A stretch of 64,000 nucleotides of DNA from Methanosarcina sp. MTP4 (GTDB lineage Archaea; Halobacteriota; Methanosarcinia; Methanosarcinales; Methanosarcinaceae), in assembly GCF_000970045.1 (NCBI RefSeq), contig NZ_CP009505.1, forward strand, positions 3,744,808 through 3,808,807, in the 5' to 3' direction. Positions 57,612 through 61,290 of the stretch are shown here, piece after piece. A program made the translations under genes and the position numbers. Position 1 is the stretch's first letter; each line of letters starts with the position of its first letter. Under the pieces are notes generated by a model. The model ran no database searches, was not told the DNA's origin, and worked only from the letters and a program-made list of their open reading frames with translations.

Positions 57612-59702
57612 ATGAAAAAAGGAGAACGAGGCATGGAAGGGCAGGGAAATAAAATCAGGATCCTTGATAAGGATACAATAAATAAGATCGCAGCCGGGGA
57701 GGTGATCGAACGTCCCGCATCCGCCATAAAGGAACTTGTAGACAACGCAATCGATGCCGGAGCCACCGAGGTCCGGATCGAGGTCGAGAAAGGGGGCAAG
57801 AAATCGATTCTGGTAAGGGACAACGGCTGCGGGATGAGCCGGGCAGATGCCCTGCTAGCATATGAAAAACACGCAACAAGCAAGCTTACGAAAATCGAAG
57901 ACTTGGACACCGTAGCCACCATGGGTTTCCGGGGAGAAGCCCTCTCCTCTATTACTGCTATCGCGAAAGTGGAAATCCTGACCCGGCCCCCCGAAGAACT
58001 CGCAGGCACGAAGGTGCTTATCCACGGAGGGCAGGTGCAGGAAAGCTCGAATATCGGCACGGCTCCGGGAACAGCTGTACACGTAAAAGACCTCTTTTAC
58101 AACACCCCGGCAAGGCAAAAGTACCTGAAAAGCGACAAGACCGAACTTGCCCATATCACGGAAGTTGTAATGAAACTCGCCCTGGCAAACCCTGAGATTT
58201 CATTCACACTCCTCAGCGACGGAAAGCCCGTCCTCAGAAACCCCGCCTCAAGCGAGCTTTTGAACAGTGTCGTAAACCTGCTAGGCCCCGAAACTGCCAG
58301 GTCCATGCTCCCCGTGGAATCCCTGACAGGGGACGTTGTTATCCGGGGCTGTGTCTCAAAGCCCGAACTTACGCGGGGGACAGGAGACCAGCTATTCCTC
58401 TTTGTAAACACCCGCCCCGTGAGCTCAAAAGCCGTAAACGCAGCCATACGCCAGGGTTACTATACGAAAATTCCAAAAGGACGCTACCCTGTAGCTGTGC
58501 TCTCCCTCACCCTCGACCCGCAGGAGGTGGACGTAAACGTGCACCCGCGAAAAGCAGAGGTCCGCTTCAGCCGGGAAAAGGAAATCAGCAATGCAGTGAC
58601 TGCAGCCGTGGAAAAGACCCTTTCAGAACACGGGCTTGCTCCCGAGATAAGGGAAAAGGAAGGCAAAACCCACCAGAAAACCCTGGAAGTCCGGGAGCCG
58701 GAGAGCAGGGTGCTGATCCATGAAAAAACGGATGTTTCGGAAAAGCCCGAGAATGGTCCCGGAAAAGACATCGGAAGAGCCGCGGAAGTTCCGGCAGGCG
58801 GAAGCAAACTCTTCAGGGAAAAACCCGAAACCTACAGTTATCCGGTAAAGGATACCGAAAGAAGGCTGAAAAGGTCGGAGCGGCTTCTGGGTATTACCAG
58901 CGAGAATGAGATGAAAGAAGCCGGAAAAGAAAAGGAAGAGGAAAAAGCGACAAGAGAAGAAAGGAAAGAAAAAGGGACAGAAGAGAAGACAGAAGAAGAA
59001 AGGAAAGAAAAAGGGACACAAAAGGGGATAGAAAAAGGGACTGGGGAAGGGAATGGAAAAGGGACTGAAAAAAGGGTAGAAAGGGCATATCCGGAGCAAA
59101 AGCCAAATAAAAAAGCCAACACTGACCCCCTTGAAGACCTCCGGATCATTGGTCAGGTCTCAAAGATCTATATCCTTGCCGAAAAAGGGGAGGACCTTGT
59201 GATCATCGACCAGCACGCCGCCCACGAGCGTGTCCTCTACGAGCAGATCCTGAAGATGAAGAAGAACAGGGTCCAGGAACTGATCACCCCGATTACGATA
59301 GACCTGACCCCGAAAGAAAAGGTGCTCATGGAAGAATACATCCCCTACCTTGAAGAACACGGCTTTGGAATCTCGGAATTCGGGGACAACACCTATGTGG
59401 TGACTTTCGTGCCGGACGTATTCGGGCGCCTGGAAGACCCGGGGATTATCCACGACCTCATCTCGGAGCTTCTTGCGGGCGGAAAGATCAAAAAGGACAC
59501 GGGAGTTTCCGAACAGGTCTGCAAGACCATGGCCTGCAGGGCGGCAATCAAAGGGGGGGCAGCCTGTAGTTTGCGGCAGATGGAAGAACTGGTGGAGCAG
59601 CTGAAACAGGCGGAAAATCCCTACTCCTGTCCCCACGGCAGGCCCACAGTCCTCACCTTCACGAGAGGGGAACTTGACCGGATGTTTGCCAGAATCCAGT
59701 GA
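57612..59702 (+). CDS. mutL: DNA mismatch repair protein MutL (endonuclease type)
   Basis: 696 aa. GHKL ATPase N-terminus: INKIAAGEVIERPASAIKELVDNAIDAGAT, VRDNGCGMSRADA and GFRGEALSSI. The C-terminal domain has the metal-dependent nicking motif DQHAAHERVLYEQI and CPHGRPTV, so this MutL is an endonuclease, as in bacteria without MutH. The linker (about 380-500) is a Lys/Glu-rich low-complexity stretch with KGTEEKT-like repeats. Starts at ATG 57612 or 57633. Pair with mutS. Confidence 0.96.
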   Translation: MKKGERGMEGQGNKIRILDKDTINKIAAGEVIERPASAIKELVDNAIDAGATEVRIEVEKGGKKSILVRDNGCGMSRADALLAYEKHATSKLTKIEDLDTVATMGFRGEALSSITAIAKVEILTRPPEELAGTKVLIHGGQVQESSNIGTAPGTAVHVKDLFYNTPARQKYLKSDKTELAHITEVVMKLALANPEISFTLLSDGKPVLRNPASSELLNSVVNLLGPETARSMLPVESLTGDVVIRGCVSKPELTRGTGDQLFLFVNTRPVSSKAVNAAIRQGYYTKIPKGRYPVAVLSLTLDPQEVDVNVHPRKAEVRFSREKEISNAVTAAVEKTLSEHGLAPEIREKEGKTHQKTLEVREPESRVLIHEKTDVSEKPENGPGKDIGRAAEVPAGGSKLFREKPETYSYPVKDTERRLKRSERLLGITSENEMKEAGKEKEEEKATREERKEKGTEEKTEEERKEKGTQKGIEKGTGEGNGKGTEKRVERAYPEQKPNKKANTDPLEDLRIIGQVSKIYILAEKGEDLVIIDQHAAHERVLYEQILKMKKNRVQELITPITIDLTPKEKVLMEEYIPYLEEHGFGISEFGDNTYVVTFVPDVFGRLEDPGIIHDLISELLAGGKIKKDTGVSEQVCKTMACRAAIKGGAACSLRQMEELVEQLKQAENPYSCPHGRPTVLTFTRGELDRMFARIQ

Positions 59703-59904
59703 ATCCTCAGGGTTCACCCCCCAACATAAAACAAATAATTAAACTCTTCAGGCAAAAGCTTATTTTAGCAGAATTGAAAAACACTACCATGAGGACATAG
59801 ATTAGGTATATAGATTAACAATTACTACCCATGTCAACAATTGTCATTCTTGAAAAAACAAGAAGTATTTGCTAAAAGTATATATAATATAACTGATGAG
59901 TTGG

Positions 59905-60090
59905 GGGCGGGTGTCAGGCATAGAACTGACATCTGAATAGGCACCATTCCGGGCTATTTTTCACACACCAACCCCCCCATAAGAGAATGGAAACCCCCCC
60001 ATTCCCAAAACCTGGATACCCCCCATTTCCAGAAAAAACGAATGAAATACCCCCAACACCCTGGAATGGTGCCACACCTTTTCTTCACAC
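59905..60090 (+). ncRNA. Candidate promoter-driven non-coding RNA with four C-runs
   Basis: A strong TATA box (AAAAG-TATATATAATAT, 59874-59890) predicts a start near 59905-59912. Next come a hairpin TGTCAG/CTGACA (around 59913-59932), then GGCACCATTCC at 59940-59950 that pairs perfectly with GGAATGGTGCC at 60063-60073. Inside are four runs of C: 59972-59978, 59994-60000, 60019-60024 and 60050-60054, each preceded by A and the first three followed by AT. A T-rich tract with CACACCTTTTCTT twice follows. No ORF of note. I infer a structured RNA of about 170-190 nt; the ends are not proven. Confidence 0.55.
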
Positions 60091-60165
60091 CTTTTCTTAA
60101 AACTGTTTTCGGATGTCTTTTTTTGTTCAGGATGTTTTCAGTCAGGATAATTTCCTAATAGGTTC

Positions 60166-60227
60166 AGGCAGGAGAAATCAAGGATATTTTCAAATAAGGC
60201 AGGAGAAATCAAGGATATTTCCAAATT
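60166..60227. repeat. 31-bp direct tandem duplication upstream of cbiD
   Basis: AGGCAGGAGAAATCAAGG begins at 60166 and again at 60197, exactly 31 bp apart, each copy going on as ATATTT. It ends about 45 bp before cbiD and may lie in its promoter. Nothing else is seen between 60090 and 60270. Confidence 0.8.
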
Positions 60228-60270
60228 TCCACATCAATATATTTATACAAAAAACCCCTGAATATCATCC

Positions 60271-61290
60271 ATGATAGATCCCGTTAACAATTTTGACATC
60301 CCGGAAGAATGGATAGCCCGCACCAGGATGCCCAGGGAAGAAGTGGAAGAAAAAGTGGCATCCGGAATGATCGTCGTCCTGAGCGACGGGTCTGTTCTGA
60401 AACGCGGGTACACCACCGGGACCACTGCCGCTGCCGCAGCAAAAGCCGCGGTGCTCTCCCTTAAAAAAACAGTTGACCGCGTTTCCGTCCCGACCCCCGC
60501 AGGGCTCAGGGCATACCTTGAAGTAAGCGAATCGGGTCCAGGGCGTGCCGTTGTGAAAAAGATCCGGAATGACCACGAATCCGACATCACCCGCGGCCTT
60601 GAGTTCGTGGGCGAAGCCAGGGAAGCTGACGGGATCCGCATCCTTGGGGGAAAGGGCATAGGGGTCGTAAAGAGGGACGGGTTACAGGTCCCAAAGGGCC
60701 AGCCTGCAATCAACCCGAACCCCATGGGACAGATCAAAGCCGCGGTGCAGGAAGCCGTGGAAGAACTGGGCCTGCGGGGAGCGGAAGTCACTATTTCGAT
60801 TCCCGAGGGAGAAAGGATAGGTAAAGAAACCCTGAACAGCAGGATAGGAGTCGAAGGAGGGATTTCAGTCCTCGGAAGCACCGGCTTTGTTGAGCCCTGG
60901 AATGACCACCTTGGCGAGATGAAAGGGGACCTGATCCGCGGTACCGAGAAAGTGGTCCTGACCACCGGGCGCATAGGGATGCGCTATTCCCACATGCTTT
61001 TCCCTGAATATACCGTGGTTATGGTCGGGAGCCGGATCTCCGAAGGGCTCGAGTCCGCCTCGGGAGACATCGTGATCTGCGGCCTTCCGGGTCTGGTCCT
61101 GAAATGGGGCAACCCTAAAATGCTCGAAGGAAGCGATTATGCCACAGTCGTGGAGATGCTTAAAAAAGCTCCGGAACACGAGCGCCTGAAAGAAGCCTTC
61201 CGGATGGCAATCGAAAAAGGAAACGGGGCAAGGATCGTTGTCATAGAAAGGGACGGCTCGGTCCTGATGGACAGCAAGAGTGAGAATTGA
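60271..61290 (+). CDS. cbiD: Cobalt-precorrin-5B C1-methyltransferase
   Basis: 339 aa. The CbiD motif [19 protein letters not shown] (about 47-65) and [16 protein letters not shown] are clear. It acts in anaerobic cobalamin ring synthesis, methylating C1 of cobalt-precorrin-5B. Its 3' end is copied as an 11-bp unit (GTGAGAATTGA) three more times downstream. Followed by cbiE after 62 bp. Confidence 0.95.

Follow-up and report, generated by a model that had tools for sequence, protein, structure and literature searches.

The window, that is, the whole 64,000-nt stretch of the Methanosarcina sp. MTP4 genome that was analysed, carries on its plus strand the open reading frames of mutL (57612..59702) and cbiD (60271-61290), and between these two neighbours lies the small gene considered here, whose product we call RNA-A. 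MutL itself contains a low-complexity linker rich in Lys, Glu and Gly (~58860-59100), at which alignments to relatives break. The predicted transcript, ~170-195 nt long, is placed at 59904..60098 on the plus strand, as are the elements of this gene described next, from the position of the TATA box and of a U-rich tail. The TATA box, TATATATAATATAA (59879..59892), can be read directly in the sequence and begins ~30 nt upstream of the first hairpin; the TATA boxes of the orthologs are TTTATATAATATAAC or near variants. Judging from this spacing, the 5' end of the RNA would lie at ~59904-59910, and its 3' end probably falls inside the U-rich tail, TTTTCTTCACACCTTTTCTT (60079..60098), which is a probable archaeal terminator and is represented at the equivalent place in the orthologs by CTCTTTTCTA or similar sequences.

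Several structural elements are arranged between these two signals. Hairpin 1, CGGGTGTCAG..CTGACATCTG (59908..59935), forms the 5' end of RNA-A and is identified by both folding and covariation. It is followed by the two arms of a closing helix, namely the 5' arm GGCACCATTCCGGG (59940..59953; covariation), with its 11-nt core GGCACCATTCC at 59940-59950, and the 3' arm CCTGGAATGGTGCC (60060..60073; fold and covariation), with its 11-nt core GGAATGGTGCC at 60063-60073. The two cores are separated by 112 nt and the complementarity amounts to 84% across 19 nt; the helix can be extended to 14 pairs, one G-U among them. Within the enclosed loop, the alignment of orthologs marks CUAUUUUUCACACACCAACCCCCCC (59954..59978), a U5 tract leading into the first C-run, as the most conserved single-stranded element. 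The four C-runs consist of seven (59972-59978), seven (59994-60000), six (60019..60024) and five (60050..60054) residues; the second is displayed in the loop of an inner hairpin, GAATGG..CCATTC (59985..60004), which is supported by covariation, and the third lies within a lineage-specific hairpin, CTGGA..TCCAG (60012..60032), predicted for this genome. The original prediction had described a TATA box, a 5' hairpin, complementary arms 112 nt apart, C-runs of 7, 7, 6 and 5 and a T-rich tail, and each of these was recovered where it had been placed; the inner hairpin around the second C-run comes in addition to its list.

Two further features lie between RNA-A and cbiD. One is a pair of adjacent 30-nt direct repeats, AGGCAGGAGAAATCAAGGATATTTTCAAAT, which are 97% identical to each other (60166-60226), and the other is a conserved block comprising a separate cbiD promoter and the gene start (60236..60290), with a TATA element ~29 nt before the ATG at 60271.

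Structure and conservation of RNA-A

When 112 genomes of the family were searched with BLASTN, RNA-A was matched significantly in three of the four genomes from the window's genus; a second genus contributed matches in 30 genomes, at E values from 1.8e-31 to 6.2e-6. We refer to the 35 genomes of these two genera as Methanosarcina-like. A covariance model built from 28 RNA-A orthologs (R1) finds RNA-A at E<=2.5e-17 in 33 of these 35 genomes, and the same search yielded no convincing RNA-A outside the two genera; matches in a pattern scan of named genomes were mostly Methanosarcina records. The position of the gene is also conserved, as the C-terminus of MutL lies upstream in 28 of 30 orthologous loci and cbiD downstream in 29 of 30, and wherever both flanks are readable RNA-A is found between mutL and cbiD.

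The RNA-A region folds at -56.6 kcal/mol, compared with -43.8+-3.9 kcal/mol for dinucleotide-preserving shuffles (z -3.3), and only one of 200 shuffles folds as well. Four helices are supported by the ortholog alignment: hairpin 1, the 11-bp closing helix, the 3-bp extension of the latter and the inner hairpin around the second C-run. Standard pairs occupy 98% of cells across these helices, each of which shows compensatory changes, and this value falls to 30-44% in a control in which the partners were slid by one to three columns. In hairpin 1, 99% of cells are paired and one pair occurs as UA, UG or CG, with both sides altered in six orthologs. The closing helix is paired in 99.7% of cells over 11 pairs, and at one of them a double change from U-A to C-G is accompanied by U-G intermediates. 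Two pairs of the inner hairpin are altered on both sides, GAATGG/CCATTC being replaced by GAACGA/TCGTTC, through changes from UA to CG in 13 sequences and from GC to AU in nine. The hairpin at 60012-60032 is not kept in most sequences of the ortholog alignment.

The most conserved stretch of RNA-A is CUAUUUUUCACACACCAACCC (59954-59974), which is near-invariant in the alignment. The C-runs as such are not invariant, and their number varies from three to six (runs of >=4 C in 30 orthologs); they are predicted to be open, with a mean unpaired probability of 0.91. In three orthologs (L030, L032 and L033), the loop contains a tandem duplication of a unit made up of a C-run and ATTTCC, which implies that loop length evolves through small expansions. 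Some orthologs (e.g. L013, L029 and L031) likewise carry tandem repeats of the motif of the U-rich tail, TTTTTCTATTATTG or TTTTTTCTATA, and this suggests serial terminators.

Overall, the region at ~59904-60098 almost certainly encodes a conserved structured RNA. The original prediction had proposed such a non-coding RNA and had recommended a comparison of the two arms in other Methanosarcina genomes; the comparison sustains the proposal, as both the arms and the C-richness are kept between species and the two arms of the closing helix covary in the Methanosarcina-like orthologs. The computational evidence shows RNA-A as a predicted stand-alone gene that has a TATA box and a U-rich tail of its own, and shows a fold in which a 5' hairpin is followed by an 11-14 bp helix; this helix holds a G-poor loop that is for the most part single-stranded and contains a U5 tract and several C-runs.

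RNA-B and a multicopy family across the class

Model R1 gives a weak second match in nearly every Methanosarcina-like genome. These second matches represent one orthologous RNA, named RNA-B, whose design is as in RNA-A; when R1 was run on 83 kb of selected loci, RNA-B was found at E 0.0004-0.02. Its gene adjoins that of the H+-pyrophosphatase, hppA (named from its sequence), and is also present in another genus. A TATA box is followed by the arms GUGAGCGGG/CCCGCUCAC, which close the loop AAACUUUUUUCACAUACCAUACCCCCCACUCCCCAUAUGACCCCCCACUCCCCAA, and the whole folds as one helix with an open loop (z -4.3 to -4.9). About 60 nt of RNA-B are invariant in ten aligned sequences, barring single-base length differences in two runs, a level of conservation usual for RNAs under strong constraint. 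The segment CUUUUUUCACAUACCAUACCCCCC of RNA-B corresponds to the conserved U5/C-run element of RNA-A. Just upstream of RNA-B, at contig positions ~784680-786309 (L084:681-2309), a HEARO (OMEGA-type) RNA (E 2.9e-21) is accompanied by an open reading frame resembling an HNH endonuclease.

A covariance model of RNA-B (R2) matches 217 of 238 genomes of the class at E<=0.1, with several copies per genome, 19 in one genome (G181) and some copies in close pairs. In a sample of the phylum, R2 and the family covariance model R3 find all 84 genomes of the class, with one to eight copies among the matches listed; under R3 the best E value in each is 9e-7 or lower, and outside the class it matches 21 of 309 genomes, mostly weakly. 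A sequence pattern, TTTTTN{3,18}CCCCCACTCCCC, gives a similar distribution (75 of 84 class genomes versus two of 309 others), whereas the reversed control pattern occurs in none of the class genomes and in eight of the 309 others. Outside the class, four genomes of family f15 hold a relative (L244-L247) with a TATA box, a helix TGAGCGGGT/ACCCGCTCA, a U5 tract and weaker C-runs (CCAAUCCAUCCCCUACCA), and these relatives look real. The weak matches L243 and L248-L251, also outside the class, look like chance and were set aside. In addition, spread of the family by mobile elements was considered and rejected, since the exact family motif was not found in viral contigs and one tandem pair of copies has no plasmid match.

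Family members were listed by a descriptor scan of the fetched loci. In its simple form, the RNA is a loop of the CUUUUUUAACACACUAACCCCCACUCCCC type, ~30-70 nt long, closed by a stem of 9-13 bp that joins the two ends. Helices in the scan are mostly 9-13 bp long and comprise 50 different sequences, and the loop has a median length of 41 nt. The descriptor includes the U-tract, the C-run and low G, and the finding of a U4-7 tract ahead of the C-runs in 72 of 73 members and of 2% G in the loop is to be read accordingly. The TATA spacing and the ACUCCC motif lie outside the descriptor: a recognisable TATA octamer precedes the helix in 72 of 73 members, the median distance between the two being 30 nt (IQR 30-32), and ACUCCC is present in 58 of 73. 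Furthermore, 51 of the 73 carry CCCCACUCCC, and the short members mostly have two C-runs only.

The closing helix of the family is paired in 98.7% of cells among 80 distinct sequences, all nine modelled pairs are altered on both sides somewhere in a model-fitted alignment of 83 members, and none of 500 shuffles reaches any of the five measures used. The loop motif is near-constant across the class and the helices and neighbours vary; the genes beside the other copies are varied and unrelated, and some are convergent.

The window genome itself contains, in addition to RNA-A, RNA-B (786592+), RNA-C (1375833-) and RNA-C' (1375194-), together with two looser copies at 24609- and 2161751+. RNA-C and RNA-C' (1375194-1375929) lie on one strand, well under 2 kb apart, and have counterparts in several Methanosarcina-like genomes (L141-L143). 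The copy at 24609- and a copy in a distant genome (G128) are each located upstream, on the same strand, of a similar pyridine-nucleotide-disulfide reductase gene and are possibly a deep ortholog pair.

RNA-A very probably belongs to this family as an enlarged, divergent member. The two share a TATA box ~30 nt before the first helix (family median 30) and a GC-rich end helix around a G-poor loop in which a U4-7 tract precedes the C-runs, and the conserved U5/C-run element of RNA-A resembles the class-wide loop motif. A U-rich tail is a further common trait, as are the closing helix as such and the open state of the loop, and with RNA-B in particular RNA-A has the series UUUUUCACA-ACCA-ACCCC in common. 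What RNA-A has beyond the short members is the extra 5' hairpin and the inner hairpins. The exact family core CCCCCACUCCCC is absent from RNA-A, though C-runs are present, and for this reason we speak only of a divergent member. When applied to the window, R3 gives RNA-A as the best match in 64 kb (13.9 bits), yet at E 0.17, and among the RNA-A orthologs it reaches 20.6 bits, with a best E of 0.003; the direct link between RNA-A and the family through the models is weak but consistent.

Possible modes of action

Of the readings considered, the most likely is that RNA-A acts in trans as a small regulatory RNA, its C-rich loop pairing with G-rich ribosome-binding sites and its U-tract perhaps binding Lsm; we assign this reading a probability of roughly 0.45. 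According to this proposal, the end stem would protect the RNA and keep the loop open, the U-tract would receive an Lsm/SmAP protein, and pairing of the C-rich part with ribosome-binding sites would lower translation. Several copies with different promoters could then deliver one loop under different conditions.

The target tests bear on the pairing step. Pairing of the C-rich motif is ~3 kcal/mol stronger with the 22 nt ahead of start codons than with coding sequence. However, composition-matched shuffles equal it for the start regions (11 of 60 against the family motif and 42-44 of 60 against two RNA-A segments), and in the same test the anti-SD control is specific, with 0 of 60 shuffles; SD strength was one of the criteria by which the start codons had been picked, a bias that bears equally on every motif. 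Long antisense targets (GGGGAGTGGGGG, up to one mismatch) are about as frequent as those of a reversed control when RNA genes are set aside. Ribosomal RNA was rejected as a target, 31-38 of 40 shuffled loops pairing as well or better with 16S/23S. Because shuffled motifs pair equally well, a long complement was not found and rRNA is no special partner, pairing with ribosome-binding sites is proposed by analogy with LhrC and with sRNA162 and sRNA41 of M. mazei. The traits of anti-RBS RNAs of the LhrC type are present, namely open C-rich/UCCC sites and several copies per genome. The suggestion in the original prediction that the C-runs pair with ribosome-binding sites stays a plausible proposal: the runs are predicted to be open and C-rich motifs prefer start regions, but shuffles do as well and there is no long dedicated complement. 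The weak C-runs of the distant members in family f15 also speak against it.

The same data would also suit an RNA that binds protein, in which the U-tract and the C-rich motif are recognised by Lsm/SmAP or a C-binding protein, the copies act as scaffolds or sequester their partner, and mRNA pairing is secondary or absent. The most conserved stretch of RNA-A, U5-CACACACCAA or U5-CACACACCAACCC, has no complementarity to ribosome-binding sites and is closer in appearance to a site for a protein. The constancy of the loop against variable helices and neighbours, a copy number that can reach 19 and pairing no better than that of shuffles all fit with protein binding; furthermore, Methanosarcinales is the only order reported to include species encoding three Lsm proteins (PMC10221803). 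This report and the conserved U-tract make an Lsm partner, or a purely protein-binding role, a serious rival. On the other hand, the partner is putative, and C-rich loops of bacterial small RNAs do pair with ribosome-binding sites (PMC4132741). We regard a protein-binding function as the main rival, quite possible if somewhat less likely than pairing.

The remaining alternatives are improbable. Because RNA-A has a promoter of its own and cbiD another, a role for RNA-A as leader or attenuator of cbiD, such as a cobalamin-sensing element, is unlikely, even though RNA-A lies upstream of cbiD on the same strand and ends in a U-rich tail: the block ATTTATA..AAAAAACC..ATG, with its TATA-like element by the cbiD start codon, is present in 29 of 29 loci tested, the distance from RNA-A to cbiD ranges from 102 to 707 nt, other family members are found beside unrelated genes and no riboswitch of Rfam matches. 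Still less probable is a small-protein gene, whether a short mRNA or a dual-function RNA. M. mazei small RNAs, sRNA154 included, can carry small ORFs (PMC11456600), and the original prediction, which held that no frame is coded here, must be amended for this genome, in which a proline-rich ORF of 37 codons (ATG at 59987) is open. It stands for most orthologs, in which the start is lost and the frame broken: GAACGA replaces GAATGG in about half of them, indels disrupt the frame and a coded peptide was rejected after no conserved ORF was found in 30 orthologs. The loops of the short members, at 2% G, are so nearly free of G that they contain almost no start codons. Least probable of all is an element acting at the DNA level, in which the G-runs of the minus strand form a G-quadruplex, as the original prediction had raised, or the locus forms an i-motif. 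The locus does contain four or more C-runs, but the widespread short members, mostly with two C-runs, still have the promoter, helix and tail, and the helix changes are compensatory, as for an RNA; for these reasons, quadruplexes are not supported as the conserved function.

Relation to known small RNAs and significance

The closest parallel to a trans-acting RNA of this kind is LhrC of Listeria monocytogenes, a multicopy, G-poor small RNA whose UCCC sites bind a ribosome-binding site (PMC4132741). Like LhrC and other UCCC-motif RNAs such as RsaE, the archaeal family is multicopy and G-poor, and the C-rich/UCCC sites that recur redundantly in its loops and single-stranded parts are proposed to pair with ribosome-binding sites. 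LhrC is bacterial, however, and no sequence relation to the archaeal family has been shown; the latter is built on one end-to-end helix around a single large loop that includes a conserved U-tract, and its pairing is putative. As a kind, the family resembles the C-rich-loop regulatory RNAs of bacteria.

Repeated, near-identical single-stranded motifs in several copies per genome also recall CsrB/RsmZ RNAs, which scaffold or sequester the CsrA protein. The motif of the family is U/C-rich rather than GGA, and its protein partner is putative.

Among the archaea, the original prediction had pointed to M. mazei sRNA41 as a precedent, and fairly so, since this intergenic RNA reportedly masks the ribosome-binding sites of polycistronic mRNAs, those of the ACDS operons (PMC5867862); it comes from the same genus group and was compared with RNA-A and RNA-B by description only. 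Two other conserved Methanosarcina small RNAs act partly through ribosome-binding sites, namely sRNA162, which is reported to mask such sites (PMC3510493), and sRNA154. They differ from RNA-A in that sRNA162 is located at MM2440/MM2441, a transcription factor operon, and RNA-A at mutL/cbiD, and in that sRNA154 has a conserved leaderless ORF of 20 aa (PMC11456600), whereas the 30 RNA-A orthologs have none that is conserved. In Methanolobus psychrophilus, nine highly conserved cold-induced small RNAs share an upstream 'cold box' (PMC5378194). Here again several conserved small RNAs occur in the genome of one related methanogen, and on a comparison by description only they could be copies of the class-wide family.

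A search of Rfam 15 returned no match to RNA-A or RNA-B at the gathering score and no relevant match to either at a permissive threshold. No earlier description was found in the literature searched for the motif, locus and genus; individual members may already figure under sRNA numbers in the primary M. mazei small-RNA papers. Taken as a whole, the class-wide family seems to be new.

Overall, RNA-A is probably the enlarged Methanosarcina branch of an ancient multicopy archaeal RNA family that is missing from Rfam. This family occurs in all sampled genomes of the class and, as it appears, in a single lineage beyond it, and its members would use an end-to-end helix to present a near-constant, almost G-free U/C loop. 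Such a family would be a general post-transcriptional regulator or the core of an RNP, acting as a paired-termini antisense or protein-titrating RNA. Archaeal regulatory RNAs known from more than one species are few, and almost none form families that can be followed across a class. Because the loop is near-constant throughout the class and the family has members in genetically tractable Methanosarcina species, the way in which archaea use small RNAs, and the help that Lsm proteins may give them, would be directly testable.
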